Of a stretch of 35,005 nucleotides of DNA, positions 17,127 through 26,584 are shown one piece after another. Numbering within the stretch: position 1 is the first letter of the stretch; each line of letters starts with the position of its first letter. The position numbers and the translations under genes are program-made. The DNA comes from an uncultured bacterium (GTDB lineage Bacteria > Hydrogenedentota > Hydrogenedentia > Hydrogenedentales > CAILVY01), in NCBI GenBank assembly GCA_937951485.1, contig CALEDJ010000063.1:1-35005 (forward strand), written 5' to 3'. The notes under the pieces were generated by a model. The model had not been told where the DNA came from. It worked only from the letters and a program-made list of their open reading frames with translations, and did no database searches.

Positions 17127-17495
17127 TCAGCGGCGTTTGAGGCGCTTTACGAGTTTTGCAATCCACACGCTGATCATGTCTTCGCCGAGTTCGCGCAACA
17201 GATCAATGCCTTCCTTGCGCGCGATGGCGACGGCGCGCGCGCGGGCCATTTCGCGGGCGCGGCGGCGCTCTTCGGGAGTGAGGCGGCCGCCGGGGCGCGT
17301 CGCCTTGAGGGATTCGACATAGGCACGGTAGGTTTCCTCGACAGCGGCTTCGAGCGCCTGGATCGCACGCAAATAACGTCTGCGGCGCAGCCGCGCATAA
17401 CACGCGCCTCCCTTGAACAGGGTCCAGATCGCGCCCATGATCGCGCCGAGAAGGGTGATACCGGCTTCAGTGCTGAGGATGGTGGTGAGGTTCAT
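17127..17495 (-). CDS. Small phage-cluster membrane protein with basic helical tail
   Basis: The start at 17495 gives 122 residues: an N-terminal hydrophobic segment (about residues 8-30, GITLLGAIMGAIWTLF) followed by a long, very basic helical region rich in Arg and Lys. It is last in the minus-strand phage cluster, immediately downstream of the M15 peptidase, where a holin or spanin-like lysis accessory is often encoded. No family signature is recognised, so a lysis role is positional inference. The ribosome site is weak (AAAGG). Its stop is 4 bases from the convergent hydrolase-fusion stop. Confidence 0.6.
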   Translation of the reverse strand: MNLTTILSTEAGITLLGAIMGAIWTLFKGGACYARLRRRRYLRAIQALEAAVEETYRAYVESLKATRPGGRLTPEERRRAREMARARAVAIARKEGIDLLRELGEDMISVWIAKLVKRLKRR

Positions 17496-17525
17496 GGTGG
17501 GGGCCTTTGCTGGGTTGGGGGAATG

Positions 17526-17561
17526 AGTCAGACGAATCAGACAGATCGGACAGATCGGACC
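17526..17561. repeat. Period-9 array overlapping the 3' end of the M15 peptidase gene
   Basis: Four 9-base units of the form ATCGGACAG run from the intergenic gap into the last codons of the M15 gene, so the protein's C-terminus (WVRSVRSV) is encoded by repeat sequence. No inverted partner is evident here. Confidence 0.6.
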
Positions 17562-18085
17562 CATGGGTCGGCGCTGTTGGATGCCGCTGCGCCGCGCCCA
17601 CCCTGCGTTGGCGTGGCGCGGAAGCGGTTGTCGGCGTGGACGTGGCCGTCGCGGTAATCGTCTTTGACGAAGTCGAAGTGTCTCCGGCAGACGCTGCCGA
17701 GGGTCTTCTGGGGCACGCGCGCGCGGGTGGCGGCGGTGACGGCGATGAGGTCCACGGCGATGCCGCCGTACCGGGCGAGGTGGCGGGAATCGCGGGCGAC
17801 GGCGCCGCCCTGATCGGTCCAGCCGAGCCGCGCAGCGAGGCGTTCGAGATCGGCTTGCGTGCGCACCGCGTTGGTGATGATGATCCAGACATCGGTGCGG
17901 TGCATCGCGCAGAGGTCGCGGCGGGTTTTTTCGAGGGAGACGAGGGTGTCGGCGTGGACCATCGCGAGGCCCTCGGGATTCTCGAACTCGCGGAGCCGAA
18001 AATGGCTGATCGGCTCGCCGTCCAGCAGACACAGCAGCGGGATGTCGTTCCTGCCGCACGGGGGACGGGGGTCATTCTGCTGCAT
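17537..18085 (-). CDS. Phage-type M15 peptidase (candidate endolysin)
   Basis: The ATG at 18085 has AGGA 10 bases upstream, and the upstream gene's stop lies 13 bases before it; an earlier in-frame ATG overlaps that stop but has no ribosome site. The product has 182 residues. The zinc ligands of the M15 family are in place: His102 and Asp112 in SRHLARYGGIAVD, and His150 in GHVHADNR. M15 enzymes are D,D-carboxypeptidases or L-Ala-D-Glu endopeptidases that cut peptidoglycan cross-bridges and serve many phages as endolysins. It has no signal peptide, so export would need a holin. The last residues are encoded by a period-9 repeat and may be a recent addition. Confidence 0.8.
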   Translation of the reverse strand: MQQNDPRPPCGRNDIPLLCLLDGEPISHFRLREFENPEGLAMVHADTLVSLEKTRRDLCAMHRTDVWIIITNAVRTQADLERLAARLGWTDQGGAVARDSRHLARYGGIAVDLIAVTAATRARVPQKTLGSVCRRHFDFVKDDYRDGHVHADNRFRATPTQGGRGAAASNSADPWVRSVRSV

Positions 18086-18098
18086 ATCCGGGCGATCC

Positions 18099-18620
18099 TC
18101 ACACATAGACGCGGGCGTCGGTGATGTAACCGTTGACACCGTCGTTGCTGTTTTTGATGCAAGTCATACCCGGGCGCAAATGCAAGTGCGCCAGGGCGAG
18201 ACAGTGGGCGTCGGCGTTGGGGGGAGCGGGCGATGCCGCCTCGTTGCCGCGTTTTACGCTGACACTCCAGGTGTCGAGGTTCGCTTGCACGAGGTCAATG
18301 CGGTTTTGCGCGGCCGGCGGGGGGATTTCGGCGGTTTCGGTCGTCTGCGTGAGGCGGAAGGGGTACCTGCTGATGAAGGCTGCGCCGGGCCGCACGTGGA
18401 CGGTCAGGCCGGGGGACGGCGTGGCGACCACCTTGAGGTCGTCGGCGGTGAAGCCGCGCACAACGCCGTTGCCCCCGCCCCAGGCATGACACAGCAGATG
18501 AAATGCCAGTTCAAGGGCGGCTTCGATGCGGTCGTCCCAGAGGTTGAGTTTGGCGGATGCCACAGGGCGTTCTTCAAAAGACCAGGTGGTCTTGAGGTAA
18601 GCAGGACCGCGAATGGCCAT
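18099..18620 (-). CDS. Phage tail-fibre or baseplate-like protein
   Basis: The ATG at 18620 follows GGGAGAA and gives 173 residues (MAIRGPAYLKTTWSFEERPV at the N-terminus). A 45-residue open extension upstream is built from repeat sequence and looks like a false hydrophobic leader. The N-terminal third is helical; a Gly-rich loop (WGGGNGVV) leads into a beta-rich region (LTVHVRPGAAFISRYPFRL) of the kind found in small fibre or receptor-binding proteins. The order tail hub, this gene, endolysin fits a distal tail component. No named family is certain. Confidence 0.65.
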   Translation of the reverse strand: MAIRGPAYLKTTWSFEERPVASAKLNLWDDRIEAALELAFHLLCHAWGGGNGVVRGFTADDLKVVATPSPGLTVHVRPGAAFISRYPFRLTQTTETAEIPPPAAQNRIDLVQANLDTWSVSVKRGNEAASPAPPNADAHCLALAHLHLRPGMTCIKNSNDGVNGYITDARVYV

Positions 18621-18649
18621 GGTGGGTTCTCCCGGGGTTGGGGAAGGGA

Positions 18650-18849
18650 CTGAAAAGAGGACGGAAGGCACAAAAGGGACCGAAAGGACGGCAAGGACAA
18701 CAAGGACGGCAAGGACATCAGGAATGAAAGACACAACAGCGGGGACGAAAGACACAACATAGACGCCAATGGCGCATGCCGCCGATGCTGCGCCGTCTAT
18801 TGTGCGTGTGCTTGCTGTCCTTTTCGTCCTTTTCGTCCTTTCTCAACAG
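18650..18849. repeat. Long imperfect inverted repeat built from period-9 GGAC arrays
   Basis: This gene-free 239-base spacer lies inside the phage cluster. The left arm (18650-18751) has about ten 9-base units (AAGGACGGC type) and the right arm (18812-18846) has four opposite units (TTTCGTCCT). Between them ACACAACATAGACG (18750-18763) faces CGTCTATTGTGCG (18794-18806), and GGCGCA / TGCGCC forms the inner stem. The whole spacer can fold as one long imperfect hairpin. In one frame it reads as hydrophobic residues. Confidence 0.75.
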
Positions 18850-18859
18850 GTGGGCTCCT

Positions 18860-20599
18860 TCAATCAAGGTGGTAGCCCATGTCGAGGCCGACGGCGTCGT
18901 CGTCAAGGCGGAACTCGAAGAGGCTGCGGGCGCTTTCCTGGCCGCGCACGATGAAGTGCAGGGGATTGCGCACGGAGCGCAGGGGGGAGCCGAGCAGGGC
19001 GGTGGTGGTGACGCGCTTGCCGGAGAAGCGGTGTCGCACGAGGCGCACGCGGCCCACGTGTTGTCCGGCGAATCTTCCGCCCCACTCGCCGGGAAGTTCG
19101 CGGTCCAAGCGGCGCAGAGGCAGTCCGCGCAATGCGACAAGGTCGCCGACGCGGATGTCCGGGTCGCCGTGATGGAAAATCACCTGGCCGGCGGGTTCGG
19201 GCCATGCGAGGTCTTCGAGCAGGCCGGCAGCGAGTTTCTCCGCGTCGTCCCGGCGGGTGAGCGAGAAATAGGCCAGGTGCGCACTGCGCAGACCGTATTC
19301 GCCGATGCTTTCCGGGCGGCTTACGCTGAATGGCGCGAGCGCGCTGAGGGGATGCCCTTCCACCGTGAGGTAGTTGACGATGCCTCGCGAATCGGAGCCG
19401 AGATGGATGCCGTTTTTTGTGGGATCGAAATAGACGACGCGGTCGGTGATGTCGGCGCGGCGGAAGCGGACCGCGAGGTCGGGGTCCACGGAGAAGACAT
19501 AGCCGTTCGCCATGCAGGCCAGCGCGGTGAGCACCTCGATGACGCCGCCTTTCACATCGAAATCGCTGAGAATTGCGTCAGTATTTTCGATGGAATCGTC
19601 ATGCCTGCCGACATACGAGTAGAATTCTTTGAGGGCCATTTCAGGCACATGATAGCGGCCATCCTCCCAGAGATAGACATCGGCAAGCCCCTGCTCCACC
19701 AGCGCGGCGTTGAAGCACTCGCCGCCCCCGAAGGCCAGGCCGAGATAACGTCCGTAGGCGTCCACGCGGTCGTCGAACGCGCCGTTGGCGTCGCGGTGCG
19801 GGTTCAACTCGATGAAGTCTATGCCCTTGGTGTCAATCAGGTGCTGGAGGAAAGCGGTCGCGGCATCGGCGCGGCGCTTGTAGGGGCCGGCGTCATACTG
19901 CGCGTCGGTCCATCCGGCGACTTCGGGGTGGCGCTTGACGGCGTGGGCGTTGCGCGTGCGTTCCTCGGCGTCAATCAGCATCATGCGGAGGTCGGGCCAG
20001 GGCATGCCGTCCACGACAATGCCCGCGATGGTGTCGCCGTCCTTGGCGCAGGCGTGGGAGAGGTCCATGCGGTCCGCGCCGACCCATTGGCCTTCGCTGA
20101 TGCCGCCGTGTTCGAGTTCGTTTTCGTCGGTCTTGCGGGTGAGAAACTTGGCGAATTCGCGCTGCGCGCCGTCGGGATAGGCGTCGTGCGCGACGGTGTA
20201 ATGGATGGGGCCGGGGGCGGCGTTGATGACGTCTTTGACGGCGGCGCTGATCTCGCGCTGCACGCATGCGCGGGAGACGCGGGTGTTTCCGGCGCGGATG
20301 GGGCTGCGTGCCTCGATTTCGAGCAGTTCGTGGAAGGTGACGTAGCGGTCGAGGATGAGTTTTTGGGTGTCGCTCCAGCAGGGCCGCAACAACTCGACGT
20401 GGCCTTCGCAGACGCGTTCGCCGTCCAGCCGGACCACCACGCGGTAGGCGTGGCCGAGGTCGGGCGTGTCGGCGGGGAGCAGGCCGCGGATGCAGTCGGC
20501 GTCGTCCGGCGTGGCGCGGATCACGTCGAGCAGCGGCACCTCGTCGAAGATGGCGATGCGGCGGCCCCAGGTGTCGTAGAGAATGACTTCGTAATGCAT
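18860..20599 (-). CDS. Phage tail-hub protein with an inserted staphylococcal-nuclease-like domain
   Basis: The ATG at 20599 lies 2 bases after the previous stop, with GGTGGTAA as ribosome site, giving 579 residues. The N-terminus (MHYEVILYDTWGRRIAIFDE) and the C-terminal half (about 340-579) resemble siphophage tail-hub or Tal/Gp37-like proteins that follow Dit. Residues about 176-335 match thermonuclease: DGDT (187-190), Arg205, LIDAEE with Asp210 and Glu213, and YGR with Arg284. These correspond to Asp19/Asp21, Arg35, Asp40/Glu43 and Arg87 of the Staphylococcus enzyme, so calcium-dependent nuclease activity is likely retained. The domain could cut DNA at or after injection, or be a toxic payload. 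Placement as hub is inferred from order and general fold. Confidence 0.8.
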   Translation of the reverse strand: MHYEVILYDTWGRRIAIFDEVPLLDVIRATPDDADCIRGLLPADTPDLGHAYRVVVRLDGERVCEGHVELLRPCWSDTQKLILDRYVTFHELLEIEARSPIRAGNTRVSRACVQREISAAVKDVINAAPGPIHYTVAHDAYPDGAQREFAKFLTRKTDENELEHGGISEGQWVGADRMDLSHACAKDGDTIAGIVVDGMPWPDLRMMLIDAEERTRNAHAVKRHPEVAGWTDAQYDAGPYKRRADAATAFLQHLIDTKGIDFIELNPHRDANGAFDDRVDAYGRYLGLAFGGGECFNAALVEQGLADVYLWEDGRYHVPEMALKEFYSYVGRHDDSIENTDAILSDFDVKGGVIEVLTALACMANGYVFSVDPDLAVRFRRADITDRVVYFDPTKNGIHLGSDSRGIVNYLTVEGHPLSALAPFSVSRPESIGEYGLRSAHLAYFSLTRRDDAEKLAAGLLEDLAWPEPAGQVIFHHGDPDIRVGDLVALRGLPLRRLDRELPGEWGGRFAGQHVGRVRLVRHRFSGKRVTTTALLGSPLRSVRNPLHFIVRGQESARSLFEFRLDDDAVGLDMGYHLD

Positions 20600-20601
20600 G
20601 G

Positions 20602-21288
20602 TTACCACCATCGGTCGCGAAAGCGGATAATCGCCGTGGCGCAAGGCGACGCTTCGGCGAGACCGGTCCAGGTGAGGGTCGCGCCGTGGGGCGCGACGCA
20701 CGGAAACAGCCCCTCCGCATAGGGCGTGACATCCGTGTCTTCCCAGACCACGCGGGCCGACCCGCCGTCGAAGACAATCGTCTCGCCGGCGGCGACGCGG
20801 CCGGGATAGGCGATGCTGCGGCGGTCGTCGGTGATTGCGATATTCTCCAGGGGGGTCAGGGCGGTCAGGGCGATGGTCAGCGGCGCTTCGGCGTTGCCGT
20901 TCGTCTGAACGTGGACGGTCGCGCCGGAGGCGGCGATTTCCCACGCCAGTTCAGTTTCATCCAGCGCGACCTCATAGGGGTTGCGCGCTTCGAGATGCAG
21001 CGTGAATGCGCCGGACGGCGGGTCGCGGCGCACATCGCGGATGAAGCCCGTGCGCCGCACGAACAGACAACGGCGGGGCCGCAAGACGAGCGGGGTGTTG
21101 TCGGCGCGATCGGAGGCGGACGCGAGGATGGCGTCGAGCGCGGCCTCGACGGCTTCCGGAGTGGAAGGGTCTTCGATCACGCCCTTGATTTGGATGACGC
21201 GGGCGTCGCGCCCGCCGATTTCCGCGTGTTTTTCGGAGACGGCGGTGCGGGCGGGGTCGAAGGCGTGGTCGCCGAGGAGGATGGTCAT
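20602..21288 (-). CDS. Dit-like distal tail protein
   Basis: The ATG at 21288 follows GGAG and gives 228 residues. A 36-residue open extension upstream is encoded by the period-9 array and reads like a signal peptide (FLSLLFLLSLPSF), so it is probably spurious. The N-terminal half (ILLGDHAFDPARTAVSEKHA, ending NPYEV) and the C-terminal beta-sandwich (LTPLENIAITDDRR, GETIVFDGG) fit the two-domain plan of siphophage Dit proteins, which form the ring joining tail tube to hub. It is tightly coupled to the hub gene. There is no tail-tube or tape-measure gene for it to join. Confidence 0.7.
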   Translation of the reverse strand: MTILLGDHAFDPARTAVSEKHAEIGGRDARVIQIKGVIEDPSTPEAVEAALDAILASASDRADNTPLVLRPRRCLFVRRTGFIRDVRRDPPSGAFTLHLEARNPYEVALDETELAWEIAASGATVHVQTNGNAEAPLTIALTALTPLENIAITDDRRSIAYPGRVAAGETIVFDGGSARVVWEDTDVTPYAEGLFPCVAPHGATLTWTGLAEASPCATAIIRFRDRWW

Positions 21289-21323
21289 GGGGGGAACTCC
21301 GGGTAGGCGCGGCTGCGCCGGGG

Positions 21324-21395
21324 AAAAGGACGGCAAGGACAACAAGAACAACAAGGACAGGAAGGTCCGTTGTGGCCGGTCTCCAGACCGTGCCA
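21324..21395. repeat. Period-9 GGAC array followed by a separate hairpin
   Basis: In the 143-base gap between adaptor and Dit genes, 21324-21362 holds four to five 9-base units (GGACGGCAAGGACAACAAG type). A distinct hairpin follows at 21373-21395: TGGC-CGGTCT-CC-AGACCG-T-GCCA. GGTCTCCA recurs at 21410-21417. No gene is visible here, although head-completion and tail-tube genes would be expected at this point. Confidence 0.65.
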
Positions 21396-21431
21396 CGCAG
21401 GCGATCGAAGGTCTCCAATGCCCCTGCTGCG

Positions 21432-21842
21432 TTATCCCAGCACCGGCTGGGAGTTGGTGATGGCGGCGGGGACGCGGACGGGCGGCCGCCGCAGGAATGG
21501 CGCGAGGGCGTTCCAGGCGGCGTTTTCGGTTTCGGCGCTGTATTGCATCAATGCCGCGAAGCGGCGCGCAGGGCCGATGCGGTGGCCGCCGATGGCGATT
21601 TCCTTCTGGTGCGCGGCGTCTTTGGCGGCGAGGGAGCGCATGAGATGCGCGCCGGCAAGCAGCGTCTCGCCGAGGACAAGCAGGTCGTCGGGCGGGTCCG
21701 TGGGCGCGTGGGGGTCGAGCAGCAGGAGGATTTCAGCGTGGGCGTCGGCGATGCTTCGCGTGATGATCGCATCCGGGACCAGGACGGCGTCGTCGAGTTG
21801 AAACTTCTCGCGCACGGCGTTTTCAGTCGTAAATGACGGCAT
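21432..21842 (-). CDS. Phage head-tail adaptor (gp6/DUF1320-like)
   Basis: The product has 136 residues and follows a GGGAG ribosome site. It is mostly alpha-helical with the common adaptor opening (MPSFTTENAVREKFQLDD), a helical bundle (TRSIADAHAEILLLLDP, LVLGETLLAGAHLMRSLAAKD) and an RRFAALMQYS segment. Adaptors of this type form the ring attached to the portal. It lies directly downstream of the capsid gene, the usual place. No head-closure gene follows. Family assignment is by size, helix pattern and order. Confidence 0.65.
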   Translation of the reverse strand: MPSFTTENAVREKFQLDDAVLVPDAIITRSIADAHAEILLLLDPHAPTDPPDDLLVLGETLLAGAHLMRSLAAKDAAHQKEIAIGGHRIGPARRFAALMQYSAETENAAWNALAPFLRRPPVRVPAAITNSQPVLG

Positions 21843-21935
21843 GAGACGGTCTCCCGGAAAAGTTGATGGAAGGGCCGCGGAGGCGGCTGGGGCGTGCGCG
21901 CCTCCGCGGCATGGGGTGGGAGTGGAGGGAAAGGG

Positions 21936-22988
21936 TCAGGGGGTCCAGGCGCTGTTCAGCACAACCCGGCCCTTGGCGTAGATGATCACGAAGTCGGTGA
22001 CGACGGTGAGGTAGGTGCGGTCCCACTGCTGGTTGATGAGTTTGTCGCTTTCGACCAGCAGGTCCTGTTCGGTCAGTTTCTGGACCGCATATCCGGCGTC
22101 GAGGAGGGTGATCATGCCGTCGGGCTGATCGGCGAGAGGGGTCAGTTTCACGCCGAGGGGGGTGGGCAGGTTGCCGGTTTTGGCGAAGTCGAAGAGGGCG
22201 CTGTCCTTGATCTCGGCGAGGTTGAGGATCGCGGCGAGGGTGTCCGCATTGGCGAGCATGTGCGTCGGGGTGAAGTAGTGTTCGAGGGTGAGCGCGTTGA
22301 ATCCGGCGACAAGGTCGGCGTAGGTCCAGGTGTGCGCCGTCTTCGTATTGATGATGCGGGCGGCGGTTTCCGGGCCGGAGGCATCGCCGTACACGAGCAC
22401 GTGGGCGAGGCGCTTGTCGAGGTTGCGGCCGAGGCTTTCGCCGATGCGGCGCAGATGCACGCGGAGCATGTCCACGGACATGCGGCGCACGACCTCGTAG
22501 GAGGCGATGACGCCGCGCCCGAACTTGTCGAGCCGGACCACGCGGTCGCCGTAGGTGATCTCCGATTCGGGAATGGCGGCGCCTTCGGCGACCAGGCGCA
22601 GTTCCTCGTTCTCCTCGCTTTCCTTGACGTAAGGCACGTCGTAGGCCGTGCTCTGGATGTGCTCGTCACGGATGATCAGCGCGGGGTAGGCGGGCTTGCG
22701 GGTCATGCCCGCGATGACCGCCTCGCGCACGATGTCCGGAAAGAGCCATTTCGCGTTCGGGTCGGATTGGAAGAACCTGTCCACGGTGATGCGACTGAGG
22801 TCCGCGCCGAATTCCTGGGCGCAGTAGTCCTGAAGCGACGTGCCGATCGCGCGGAAATACTGCGCGTGGCTCAGACCCAGCCCGTCGAGAGTCTCGTAGA
22901 GTTCGCGGCCGCGGATGGCCCGAAGTTTTTCGGGCTCCTGGCCGAGAAAACGGATTTGGTCTTTGATCAATGCGCTGTCATGTCGCAT
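21936..22988 (-). CDS. Phage major capsid protein, HK97-fold type
   Basis: The product has 350 residues and starts after AGGAGCCGCCC. The N-terminal 110 residues are helical, as in a delta or scaffold-like arm. The central part (VPYVKESEENEELRLVAEGA, ITYGDRVVRLDKFGRGVIAS, DMLRVHLRRIGESLGRNLDK) and the C-terminal P-domain-like region (TPTHMLANADTLAAILNL, LTEQDLLVESDKLINQQWD, VVTDFVIIYAKGRVVLN) fit capsid proteins of Mu-like and HK97-like phages. The frame is intact. Neighbours (decoration protein upstream, adaptor downstream) support the call. Confidence 0.85.
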   Translation of the reverse strand: MRHDSALIKDQIRFLGQEPEKLRAIRGRELYETLDGLGLSHAQYFRAIGTSLQDYCAQEFGADLSRITVDRFFQSDPNAKWLFPDIVREAVIAGMTRKPAYPALIIRDEHIQSTAYDVPYVKESEENEELRLVAEGAAIPESEITYGDRVVRLDKFGRGVIASYEVVRRMSVDMLRVHLRRIGESLGRNLDKRLAHVLVYGDASGPETAARIINTKTAHTWTYADLVAGFNALTLEHYFTPTHMLANADTLAAILNLAEIKDSALFDFAKTGNLPTPLGVKLTPLADQPDGMITLLDAGYAVQKLTEQDLLVESDKLINQQWDRTYLTVVTDFVIIYAKGRVVLNSAWTP

Positions 22989-23001
22989 GGGCGGCTCCTT
23001 T

Positions 23002-23382
23002 CTACAGCAGGACGTGGACGACCGAAGCCGCCGCGTCCACTTTCAGGTTGCGGCCCGCGCCGTTCCCGGCGGCGGGCGCTTTCACGCGGCCCGGTTCTTC
23101 CGACGCCGTCACGCCGGTCACGCCGTCCACCGCGGGGGCGGGGCCTTCGTAGGCGAACAGCGCGATGCCGCGCACCATGACGGGCAGCGCGATATCGTTG
23201 AGGGCCGCGTCGGCCATGGCCTGTCCGAAGACGGGGTCTTCGTCGTCCGCGATGTTGCTGACGGTGTAGGGGCCGACCAGTTTCAATGCGTCGCCTTTGC
23301 GGATGGCGACTTCTCCTTCATCGGGGGTCCGGCAGGTGATGACCAGTTCCGTCACCGCGCCGCCGACATCTCCAAATGCCAT
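23002..23382 (-). CDS. Capsid decoration protein (DUF2190-like)
   Basis: The product has 126 residues after an AAGGAGCACC ribosome site. It is beta-rich with alternating short hydrophobic strands (ITCRTPDEGEVAIRKGDALKLVG) and an Ala/Gly/Pro-rich C-terminus. Small beta proteins of this type directly upstream of the capsid gene are usually decoration or cement proteins. It ends 13 bases before the capsid gene and is probably translated with it. The assignment is from size, fold impression and position. Confidence 0.65.
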   Translation of the reverse strand: MAFGDVGGAVTELVITCRTPDEGEVAIRKGDALKLVGPYTVSNIADDEDPVFGQAMADAALNDIALPVMVRGIALFAYEGPAPAVDGVTGVTASEEPGRVKAPAAGNGAGRNLKVDAAASVVHVLL

Positions 23383-23424
23383 GATGGTGCTCCTTTGTGA
23401 TTTGTTGTTGCAGGTCTGTTGTTC

Positions 23425-24132
23425 TCACCCGCCCCAGAGAATCTCCAGGGCGCGTTCCGCGCCGGCGCTCTTGCCGGTTTCTTCGGGCAGGCGCTCCGGG
23501 CGCGACACGGGTTCCGGCGGGTATTTCCGGTCAAAACGCGCTTCGAGCGACTCCAGGTGCCTGAAGACCTCGCGCAGCGAGAGCGGTTCGAGCGTCTTGC
23601 GCCACACCGCCTCGTCAAAGCCCGCGCCGTCGAGTTCGCGGCCCAGCCCGACGAAGCGCGCCAAGGCGCGGCGGCGCGCTTCCAGGCCGTCGGCGATTAA
23701 TTGCGCGGCGCGATGCGGCGCGCAGCCCGTTTCCGCCAAGGTCTCGCAGACAGCACGGAGGCAGGCCGGGGGCAGGCCGTCCACGCGCTCCGCGCGGAGG
23801 ATGCGCACGCCGTTGCGGCCGTGGAGCGCCAGTTCGCCGCCGCGCGCATCGCGTCGCAGCCAGCGGTACGCGCCGTCATCCTCGCGCACGGCGTCGCCGT
23901 CCTGTTCGAGCCACGAGGCGGGATGCGGCGCTTTCTCGGCGGCCCAGACCTCGTCGTCCAGGGTCTCGGCGTCCACGCGCCAGCCGAGGCAATAACCGTC
24001 CTGTTCGAGGCGCAGGTCCAGATGCGGCCCCTGCGCATCGCGGTGGCGGTGGATCACGAAGCGTTCCTCCGGCGGGCCAGAGGCCGCCGCGTCATGTTTC
24101 CGGCTTTCCAGGCAAACCAGTTTCCAATACAT
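23425..24132 (-). CDS. LigD-type 3'-phosphoesterase-like protein in the head module
   Basis: The ATG at 24132 follows GGGGAGA and gives 235 residues. The N-terminal half resembles the phosphoesterase domain of bacterial NHEJ ligase LigD: FVIHRHRDAQGPHLDLRLEQ followed by LGWRV and, further on, PHPASW. His37, Asp39 and Arg41 match the metal and phosphate ligands (HYDFR in LigD) and His70 matches the DHP motif His. The first His is shifted by one position (His30). LigD PE domains trim 3'-phosphates and ribonucleotides from DNA ends. The C-terminal half is helical and Arg/Glu-rich with no ligase or polymerase domain. Such a protein between head genes suggests processing of packaged DNA ends, which is inference. 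Confidence 0.7.
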   Translation of the reverse strand: MYWKLVCLESRKHDAAASGPPEERFVIHRHRDAQGPHLDLRLEQDGYCLGWRVDAETLDDEVWAAEKAPHPASWLEQDGDAVREDDGAYRWLRRDARGGELALHGRNGVRILRAERVDGLPPACLRAVCETLAETGCAPHRAAQLIADGLEARRRALARFVGLGRELDGAGFDEAVWRKTLEPLSLREVFRHLESLEARFDRKYPPEPVSRPERLPEETGKSAGAERALEILWGG

Positions 24133-24161
24133 TGCGGTTGCGGTCTCCCCGTGTTGCGGTT

Positions 24162-24350
24162 TCAGATCAGTTGCCGCGCCAGCGTCACGAGCGCGCCCGC
24201 GAGGTTCGCGATCAGCAGCATCATGCCGCGCGCGAGCATGCCCTCGAGCCGGTTCACGCGCTCCTTCAGATCGCGCAGGTCTTCCTTCAGACTGTTGAAT
24301 TGCAGCGTGTAGGCCGCCTGATGGCGGCAATCTTGATGCGGGTCGTGCAT
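24162..24350 (-). CDS. XhlA-like coiled-coil membrane peptide (candidate holin-associated)
   Basis: The ATG at 24350 follows AAGGA; the protease stop lies 19 bases upstream. The 62-residue product has an amphipathic coiled-coil helix (about 17-38, LKEDLRDLKERVNRLEGML) followed by one membrane helix (about 41-58). This is the plan of XhlA-type haemolysin/holin partners of defective Bacillus prophages. Its place between the protease and phosphoesterase genes, far from the endolysin, is unusual for a lysis gene. Confidence 0.6.
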   Translation of the reverse strand: MHDPHQDCRHQAAYTLQFNSLKEDLRDLKERVNRLEGMLARGMMLLIANLAGALVTLARQLI

Positions 24351-24369
24351 GGTTGGATTCCTTTGCAGA

Positions 24370-25089
24370 TCATTCATCGGCCCAGGTGCGCCGCGAGAAA
24401 AGTTCGATCGGCGCGTGGAAGGCGCGGCGGGCCTGTTCCAGCGCGACGAGCGTCGGCAGCGCGCGGGTCTGCGCCACGAAGCCGGTGCCCTGCGACCCCG
24501 ACGGCACCACGGAGCCTTCGATGACACCCAGCACGTCGCGCATGATGAAGTGACACTGCTTGCCGCCGTATTCGCGGCCGGGCGCATGGTTGCACCTGCG
24601 CAGGTCCTCGCCGCAGATGGAGCACTCCGGCAGGCGGAAGGAGAAGCCGATGGACGTCTCGCGATAGACCCCGCCCTCGATGTTCTGGATGAACGCCGCG
24701 TTTTCCGGTGTGCGCAGCACATACACATCAGGCCGCACGGAGACGCGGTCACCGTCGTGGTGCAGGCAGGACCGGAAGAAGGTGCCGCGCGGCAGCGATC
24801 CGCGCAGGTCATGGCGCTCCATCAGTGGACGCCCCGGCGTCATCCGGTTGATCTTCTCCAGTTCCTCTTCGGGGAAGCGGCTGAAATGGCGGTCCACCTG
24901 GTTGTGGCAGAGGTCGAGCGTGAAGACGGCGAATTCCTCCGGACGCAACGGGCGCAGCGCGAAACGGTTCACCGCGGACGCGATGTCATCAGCGGCATCC
25001 GGCGCGGGCGCGTCCGTGGCGGCGGCATCCGCCGCGCGCATGCCGATCACCCAGCCCTCGCGCTGGAAGACAAAAGGGTCGAGGTCCAT
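24370..25089 (-). CDS. Prohead protease-like protein with a Cys/His zinc-type cluster
   Basis: The product has 239 residues and starts after AGGAGATACCCCC. The central part (TPGRPLMERHDLRG, NIEGGVYRETSIGFSF) resembles prohead proteases acting on capsid arms before packaging. An insertion follows with CSICG, CNHAPG, YGGKQC, a four-ligand Cys/His pattern found in a subgroup of these proteins, before the conserved EGSVVPSGSQGTGF stretch. His95 of MERHD and Ser of YRETS are candidate catalytic residues, but I cannot assign the triad firmly. It lies between portal and capsid genes, the expected place. Confidence 0.65.
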   Translation of the reverse strand: MDLDPFVFQREGWVIGMRAADAAATDAPAPDAADDIASAVNRFALRPLRPEEFAVFTLDLCHNQVDRHFSRFPEEELEKINRMTPGRPLMERHDLRGSLPRGTFFRSCLHHDGDRVSVRPDVYVLRTPENAAFIQNIEGGVYRETSIGFSFRLPECSICGEDLRRCNHAPGREYGGKQCHFIMRDVLGVIEGSVVPSGSQGTGFVAQTRALPTLVALEQARRAFHAPIELFSRRTWADE

Positions 25090-25117
25090 GGGGGTATCTC
25101 CTTGGTGTCGGGGTGTC

Positions 25118-25220
25118 TATGGACAGGATGGACGGAATGGACAGGATGGACGATGCTGGGGCACACACACTGCAACTGCAATTTCATTCATTCTGTCCAT
25201 CCCGTCCATATCGTCCATTA
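25118..25220. repeat. Compact inverted pair of TGGAC arrays
   Basis: The 232-base gap between the portal and protease genes has no gene. The left arm (25118-25155) is four 9-base units with core ATGGACRGRATGG; the right arm (25189-25220) is its inverse (CTGTCCATCCCGTCCATAT). About 30 bases of unrelated sequence separate them. This is the cleanest hairpin-forming member of the family. Confidence 0.8.
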
Positions 25221-25321
25221 AACAGCGTCGTCTTGCAGGGTGAATGAAACAGCGCGGAACCCGCCACAATCCTTGAGGACAGCCGATGGGTTTCTCTTTG
25301 CTGCCCCGCCTTATGAACCAT

Positions 25322-26584
25322 TCACGCGAGTTTTCCGGGGAGGTTGAGCATGGCGGCGGCGGTGTCGTGGTCGGTGAAGCCGAGTTCCCGCAGCCGCGCG
25401 GCGTTTTCGATTTCGCGGGCGCGGGCCTGTGCCGCCTTCAGGATGTCCACGGTGCGGTTGGCGCGCATGTGGACGCGAGCGCGCGCTTCGCCCCACATGA
25501 GGGCGAGTTCAAAGTTGTAGAGCCGCTCCAGGATGCGCTTGACCGCGCGGTTCACTGCTTCCACCTGCCGGTTCACGATCTCGAACTGCGCGGTGCCGTA
25601 GGTTTCCGTTGTGCCGTAGTTGCGGCCGATTAAAATCGGCATCAGGTGCATGCCGGTGATGACCTGCTCCTCGATGGCCTTGTGGTTCTCGTAAAAAACG
25701 TGGGCGGCCTGCCCGCCCTGGACCAAAGAAACCTTGACATTATCGTAGGTGACGAGGTTCTGGTCTGGCGAGAGGCCGCTGAGTTTGGATCGCAGCGTTT
25801 CGAGGTTCTGTCCCATCCGCGCCTGGTAGTCCTCGACGCTTTCGCCGCGCCGTCGTTCTTCAGGGACATATTGCACATGGAGTTTGCTCCAGCCGGCGTT
25901 GTGCGTCGCCTTGGCCATGTCTTCGAGCAGCCGCTGCTGGATTTTCACGACAAAGGGGATGCTCCGGAGCATGGACCTGCCGTAGGGATTGCTGCCGTCG
26001 CGGTCCATGCCCACATAGATGAAGCGTTCCGCGGGCAGCGGGATCATCTCGCCATCGTGGAGTTGATAGGGCAGCAGTCGCCCGCCTTCGCGCTTGAATC
26101 GGACGGTCCACACGTCCACCGGCACGACGTCCCAGATGGATTCGCGGCTGTGGGTCAGCACGATTTCCAGGGCGGCCGCGCCGTAGGTAAAGAGCGATGC
26201 GTAGAAGATGTCGAGCAGGCCGTCCATGCCCCGGTCGCCGCTGTTGACGCGGCGGTTCAGTTCATCCAGCAGGCGGCGGGCGCGGCGATCGGCCACGCCG
26301 GAACTCGCGTCGTGGATTTCGATGTCGAAGCCGGTCTGGCAGAGGCGCTTCCAGGTCCAGACCGCGTCGGAGATGTCGGGAATGGCGTCGCGCAGGTACC
26401 GATAGACGCGGAGCATTTCGAAGGGCGTCTCGTTCGGCAGCGGAATGCACTGATCCGCCGCCGCCGCGATGCGCGAGTGGTCTTCGGGCCGGGAGGCCGT
26501 GCGAAAGGTTTCCGCCGGTCCCGATGCGCGGGCCGCGCCGTTCCCTTTGCGCCGCTTCATCCATCGTCCAAGCCAGGTGGTCAT
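25322..26584 (-). CDS. Phage portal protein (DUF935/Mu gp29-like)
   Basis: The product has 420 residues after a GGAG ribosome site. Family features include YRYLRDAIPDISDAVWTWKR near the N-terminus, LFTYGAAALEIVL, RFIYVGMDRDGSNPYGRSML (the conserved YG-x-S block), NLVTYDNVKVSLVQGG, and a long C-terminal helical region (FEIVNRQVEAVNRAVKRILE). Portals form the dodecameric DNA gate of the head. It is the first gene of the block; upstream there is no terminase, only 146 bases and then a gene on the other strand. With no packaging motor encoded here, DNA loading would need a terminase from elsewhere. Confidence 0.85.
   Translation of the reverse strand: MTTWLGRWMKRRKGNGAARASGPAETFRTASRPEDHSRIAAAADQCIPLPNETPFEMLRVYRYLRDAIPDISDAVWTWKRLCQTGFDIEIHDASSGVADRRARRLLDELNRRVNSGDRGMDGLLDIFYASLFTYGAAALEIVLTHSRESIWDVVPVDVWTVRFKREGGRLLPYQLHDGEMIPLPAERFIYVGMDRDGSNPYGRSMLRSIPFVVKIQQRLLEDMAKATHNAGWSKLHVQYVPEERRRGESVEDYQARMGQNLETLRSKLSGLSPDQNLVTYDNVKVSLVQGGQAAHVFYENHKAIEEQVITGMHLMPILIGRNYGTTETYGTAQFEIVNRQVEAVNRAVKRILERLYNFELALMWGEARARVHMRANRTVDILKAAQARAREIENAARLRELGFTDHDTAAAMLNLPGKLA

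Follow-up and report, generated by a model that had tools for sequence, protein, structure and literature searches.

A staphylococcal-nuclease-type domain within the tail hub of a candidate GTA-like element of Hydrogenedentota

Experimentally established GTAs comprise a handful of lineages. In RcGTA (Rhodogtaviriformidae), the phage-derived particle genes are vertically inherited and spread over several loci, much as described below for the Hydrogenedentota. Its hub protein Rcc01696 likewise contains an internal OB-type domain (residues 168-249), although this domain owes its name to sugar binding and an Fe-S cluster is bound by the hub. Moreover, RcGTA particles possess a tail tube as well as a tape measure, neither of which was found in the Hydrogenedentota locus. 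BhGTA/VSH-1 (Brachygtaviriformidae), which belongs to another phylum, shares with our system a conserved terL that stands alone, away from the structural cluster, an endolysin and co-diversification with the host, whereas a nuclease hub is not reported for it in the accessible text of its description (PMC9662315).

A fusion of a tail hub with a nuclease has a precedent in the BtI1 prophage of Bacillus thuringiensis israelensis, in which RBTH_07687, a homolog of T4 gp27, carries an SNase domain (PMC2147016). As in our protein, a gp27-type hub is joined there to a staphylococcal-nuclease-type domain, the role of which is unknown in that case, too. However, the BtI1 SNase domain is N-terminal and part of a large myovirus-like prophage, whereas in Hydrogenedentota it forms an internal insert with a conserved active site in an apparently domesticated locus. 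Because of this precedent, we regard the SNase-hub fusion itself as a variant. In gp27, domains 2 and 4 point away from the tube (PMC2147016), and the position of our insert resembles that of the OB-type domain found in the hubs of RcGTA and T4 (PMC7296036); for the T4 gp27, Mu gp44 and VgrG hubs compared, no catalytic nuclease is described at this position. The first-pass annotation had called nucleases unusual in such hubs. This is fair, although BtI1 and the entry A0A7R7G2A4 of BFVD, which is listed in two pieces and without a name and matched both our hub model and our SNase model, are precedents. Searched against phages by itself, the SNase domain retrieved free thermonuclease genes at marginal E-values. 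We found no literature linking Hydrogenedentota with GTAs, and the few papers on prophages or capsids in this phylum did not concern the present system by title or abstract. Within the literature open without a subscription, the internal placement of the SNase, the depth of its conservation and its domesticated, split-locus and phylum-wide setting appear not to have been described.

Gene content of the capsid locus

The window, i.e. the whole stretch of 35,005 nucleotides analysed here, is one entire contig of a genome bin, the relatives of which are Candidatus Hydrogenedentota. The genes for capsid, portal and lysis make up a locus of 8-10 kb flanked by host genes, which occupies window positions 17127-26584. 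All of its features lie on the minus strand and are given below in the order of that strand. The locus begins with a Mu-type portal protein (25322..26584; phrog_3753, E=2.9e-51; PF06074, E=1.4e-10), followed by a conserved protein of 239 residues (24370..25089) that shows about 70% identity across the phylum. The latter matches phrog_16951, a family of unknown function, and found no match in a PDB profile search; by its position and look it is probably the capsid maturation protease. Next to it lies a protein resembling the LigD 3'-phosphoesterase (PE) domain (23425..24132), with a conserved start MYW at 24132. Its profile matched the PE-type structure 3p43 at E=9.8e-6 and contains invariant H/D/H/D/R and PH motifs; PF13298 scored below cut-off. 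This PE-like gene is located within the capsid operon and is present whether or not a genome has the hub.

A head decoration-like protein (23002..23382; phrog_4588, E=6e-4), syntenic in 26 other loci, precedes the HK97-type major capsid protein (MCP; 21936..22988; phrog_3922, E=2.2e-49; PF25209, E=9e-14). The small, conserved and syntenic protein between MCP and the distal tail protein (21432..21842) matched neither a family nor a PDB entry and is probably a head-tail adaptor, judging only by position and look. The distal tail protein itself (Dit; 20602..21288; phrog_33, E=2.6e-7; phrog_5577, E=4.6e-5) is also syntenic; its open reading frame extends to 21396, with the conserved start near 21288. 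It is followed by the hub (18860..20599) and by a tail-tip or fibre-like virion protein (18099..18620; phrog virion and baseplate matches at E 3e-7 to 1e-4) that is syntenic and occurs only where the hub occurs. The locus ends with two lysis genes, both retained by hub-bearing and hub-less genomes alike: a putative peptidase-M15-like endolysin (17537..18085), assigned at the level of motifs (SxHxxxGGIAxD .. DGHVHAD, with invariant H/D/H columns) and without a match in Pfam and PDB searches, and a holin-like small membrane protein (17127..17495), which is conserved with the locus and gave a weak phrog holin match (E=0.21).

Outside the locus, we found genes of host type, i.e. those for a uroporphyrinogen decarboxylase-like protein, a DUF1559 pilin-like protein, a sigma-54 regulator and a sensor kinase. 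A comparison of 27 loci revealed no further widely conserved gene around the capsid locus. In G006 and G029 (L040 and L049), which belong to one genus, the capsid locus lacks the genes for the portal, the protease-like and the PE-like protein, which suggests a further splitting of the cluster.

The SNase domain of the tail hub

The hub protein comprises 579 residues from a start at 20599, or 583 from an alternative start. Antisense reading frames on the plus strand (e.g. 18776-20722) were rejected as genes, as the homology sits in the minus-strand frame. An alignment of 31 full-length homologues, to which all conservation figures for the hub refer, was used for an AlphaFold2 model with a pLDDT of 90.3 and a pTM of 0.88. 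By structure comparison, the chain splits in two. Residues 169-333 match the structure of S. aureus nuclease (Z 13.2, 2.4-2.6 Å over 126-128 residues; Z 12.4 when the domain was folded separately), and residues 1-168 together with 334-546 adopt the fold of T4 gp27/Mu gp44/VgrG-type hubs. For this hub part, the HFTV1 tail protein was the best structural match (Z 21.0), followed by eCIS hubs (Z about 17), Mu gp44 (Z 15.5) and T4 gp27 (Z 14.6), and a Foldseek search with the hub model returned hub matches at E 3e-13. This fold and the syntenic Dit-like gene immediately upstream bear out the proposal of the first-pass annotation that the protein is a Dit-adjacent tail hub.

Sequence searches gave the nuclease assignment as well. 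PF00565 matched residues 204-312 with 23.6 bits (E=7.7e-5; curated cut-off 21) and reached 26.9 bits when the genome was scanned, and a PDB search with the 31-sequence profile retrieved S. aureus nuclease at E=2e-7. Pfam, profile, AlphaFold2 and structure comparison exclude that the SNase motifs arose by chance, and the presence of an SNase domain inside a tail hub is, in our view, practically certain. Earlier, the domain had been placed at window 19595-20074 (minus strand), i.e. residues 176-335 of the hub. These coordinates are exact and the motifs lie where they were said to lie, although the insert is slightly longer (residues 169-333; 19601..20095). The predicted fold is the SNase barrel and not another one.

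The motifs DGDT, IDAEE and YGR and the arginine of DLRMML had been read as the catalytic and Ca2+-binding residues of an SNase, and the profile alignment to S. aureus nuclease agrees. DGDT (residues 187-190; 20030..20041) corresponds to D19-T22 of that enzyme, which includes the Ca2+ ligand D21; D187 and T190 are found in 31/31 homologues and D189 in 28/31. Arg205 (19985..19987; 30/31) aligns with R35, D210 (29/31) and E213 (30/31; both within 19961..19972) with D40 and E43, and Arg284 (19748..19750; 31/31) with R87. Thus, the window protein has equivalents of D21, R35, D40, E43 and R87 on an OB-fold barrel, and D187, G188, T190 and R284 are unchanged in every homologue. A search for other hubs with the insert had been advised, and conserved loss of R205, E213 and R284 was to speak against the proposal; these three are retained in 30, 30 and 31 of the 31 homologues. 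Unlike S. aureus thermonuclease, which is a free secreted enzyme, the hub SNase is embedded in a larger chain and has a longer stretch between the equivalents of E43 and R87. Judging from its residues and fold, the domain is probably an active nuclease.

Conservation differs between the two parts of the protein. Mean pairwise identity among the 31 homologues is 66% for the insert versus 45% for the flanking hub. In eight close pairs, dN/dS was 0.04-0.17 for the insert and 0.15-0.22 outside of it, with the lower value for the insert in 8/8, though dS was near saturation in several pairs. This indicates that the function of the insert is under selection and that selection is acting on the enzyme and not on the scaffold alone. 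The same data bear on the idea that the domain is now mainly a structural or a nucleic-acid- or sugar-binding OB domain, in which catalysis is a leftover. The RcGTA and T4 hubs do contain such a non-catalytic OB-type domain (PMC7296036), and 3/31 homologues lack metal ligands and keep the rest of the domain, i.e. those of G002 (D189N, D210E), G024 (D189R) and G039 (several residues). Nevertheless, the equivalents of D21, R35, E43 and R87 persist in 28, 30, 30 and 31 of 31 homologues across phylum-deep divergence, and no other part of the protein is as well conserved as the insert, so that we consider a mainly non-catalytic role doubtful.

The hub SNases of G002, G024 and G039 (L014, L055 and L057) are possible pseudo-enzymes. 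The genome of the window also encodes a second SNase with a stronger match (E 2.9e-18) outside the locus (G000:C45:87005-87295; L004).

Inheritance of the element and its separate terminase

Of 68 Hydrogenedentota genomes, 52 encode the MCP, as do 34 of the 38 good ones; nearly all have it in single copy, and identities are 58-80%. Its distances follow those of RpoB (Mantel r 0.82, p 5e-4, 30 genomes); for the hub and TerL the correlation is looser (r 0.63 each). The RpoB and MCP trees have 10 well-supported splits in common and disagree on 3 splits supported in the RpoB tree, indicating that inheritance is mostly, not strictly, vertical. Host flanks are common to genomes of the same genus in 3/5 pairs compared. 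Among the 147 nearest genomes, 37 have homologues of the hub, and these genomes all belong to the same order; no relatives were found in IMG/VR (by single-sequence and hub-profile searches) or among GenBank phages.

No terminase is present within the capsid locus. A phrog_2 match near the locus in G016 led to the TerL family and, through a phylum-wide protein search, to TerL in 57/68 Hydrogenedentota genomes and 37/38 good ones, mostly in single copy and mostly at 60-78% identity; PF03237 by itself missed most of them. In the G016 sequence, Walker A (GRDVGKTT), Walker B (IVDEAQ) and the acidic nuclease motifs are readable. TerL is located on another contig in most genomes, and on another contig or at a distance in nearly all; in the genome of the window it lies at C19:17660-19096 (G000; L129). 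With TerL present, DNA packaging is plausible, although the split loci would make packaging of the element's own genes unlikely. In many genomes, TerL is preceded by two small conserved genes, which in L144 lie about 0.5 and 1.5 kb ahead of it; one of the two may be a small terminase subunit.

We compared these findings with the definition of GTAs in PMC9662315. The structural proteins derive from caudoviricetes (MCP, portal, Dit and TerL), the element is endogenised at several loci, with the capsid genes among host genes and TerL elsewhere, and it is inherited mostly vertically and has co-diversified with its hosts. We are fairly confident that it is a mostly vertically inherited GTA-like element. 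The first-pass annotation had spoken of a phage protein, which holds for its derivation, but the gene is part of a mostly vertically inherited, phylum-wide cassette and not of an ordinary phage. That the locus is an ordinary prophage or a host-restricted temperate phage of Hydrogenedentota, with the SNase hub incidental to it, is the least probable of the explanations considered here, even though all of its parts are caudoviricete-like and distant relatives of MCP and portal occur in phages. The single copy in each of 34 of the 38 good genomes, the congruence with RpoB, the terminase at another locus, orthologous flanks within several genera and host genes on both sides of the 8-10 kb locus, in which no integrase or replication gene was recognised, all argue against it. 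The phylum-wide single-copy capsid locus and the separate terminase point instead to a candidate GTA lineage, a proposal that reaches beyond the finding on the hub.

Tail reduction and possible roles of the hub nuclease

No tail tube, tape measure or sheath was seen in or near the 27 loci. With PF10145 as the one tape measure family queried, matches were obtained in 4/15 genomes, sporadically and on contigs other than that of the locus. As neither tube nor tape measure was found, delivery by the tail tip is uncertain. The hub is absent altogether from families f7 and most of f10, so that the nuclease is not essential to the role of the capsid. In f7 (L089-L091) and in some members of f10, the endolysin or holin-like gene comes directly after the capsid gene, and G047, G017 and G011 (L088, L092 and L093) have kept the adaptor-like gene and Dit without the hub. 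One could picture a tube-less GTA-like viriform, inherited by the Hydrogenedentota as a phylum and with its terminase and capsid genes at different loci, in which a stubby tip of Dit and hub bears a nuclease active in DNA transfer, with a 3'-phosphoesterase in the same operon. Some families would have lost the tip step by step, so that a tailless capsid that packages DNA remained together with the lysis genes. We consider this detailed scenario rather unlikely.

The first-pass annotation had offered antibacterial action as one role, pictured here as a tailocin-like particle that injects the nuclease into competitors. Hub and VgrG tips elsewhere do bear effector domains, and the position at the tip would suit delivery, but tube, sheath and tape measure were not seen and the SNase is embedded rather than a releasable terminal domain. 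In addition, the evolution of the insert is purifying and non-polymorphic, and no conserved immunity-gene candidate neighbours it in the locus; the pairing of a variable toxin domain with an immunity gene that marks polymorphic or T6SS-type toxins is thus not seen. Hence, we disfavour the effector role as very improbable and, among the earlier proposals, prefer a role on extracellular DNA.

The reading we favour, with a probability of roughly 0.4, is that the hub forms part of the tail tip of a domesticated GTA-like particle, known here from its genes, and that its nuclease cuts DNA outside the cell or at the envelope. The particle would be encoded by the host's own chromosome and would carry a catalytically intact SNase on the hub at its tail tip. 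SNase enzymes require millimolar Ca2+, so that the enzyme would be silent until lysis, kept idle by the low free Ca2+ of the cytoplasm. Lysis of the producer through the endolysin-like and holin-like genes would then expose the particle to millimolar Ca2+, with active nuclease domains on its tip, three of them if the hub is trimeric like its relatives. The SNase would cut DNA outside or at the recipient envelope; most likely, extracellular or lysate DNA would be cleared so that the tip could reach the surface. Particle formation, DNA packaging, nuclease activity, gating by Ca2+ and the extracellular role are inferred.

SNase-type enzymes leave 3'-phosphate ends, and PE domains remove them. This pairing, together with the intact catalytic-looking motif of the PE-like protein in the same locus and with a TerL that makes packaging plausible, would fit a hub nuclease that trims or nicks delivered dsDNA at the recipient envelope, like the surface nuclease of natural transformation, with the PE-like protein healing the 3'-phosphates. 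However, the PE-like gene persists where the hub is missing, so that the two do not form an obligate pair, and an unspecific nuclease beside the exit channel would damage the cargo. We regard this use as unlikely.

If the reading of a domesticated particle is true, Hydrogenedentota, a phylum known almost only from metagenomes, would harbor a very old GTA-like system. Its hub would be among the few tail hubs of phages or viriforms with a nuclease of conserved active site, and would allow a direct test of whether tail-tip DNases serve access to the cell or the handling of delivered DNA. Related families, which lack hub, Dit and adaptor to differing degrees, offer a natural series for asking what an adopted phage-derived particle needs.
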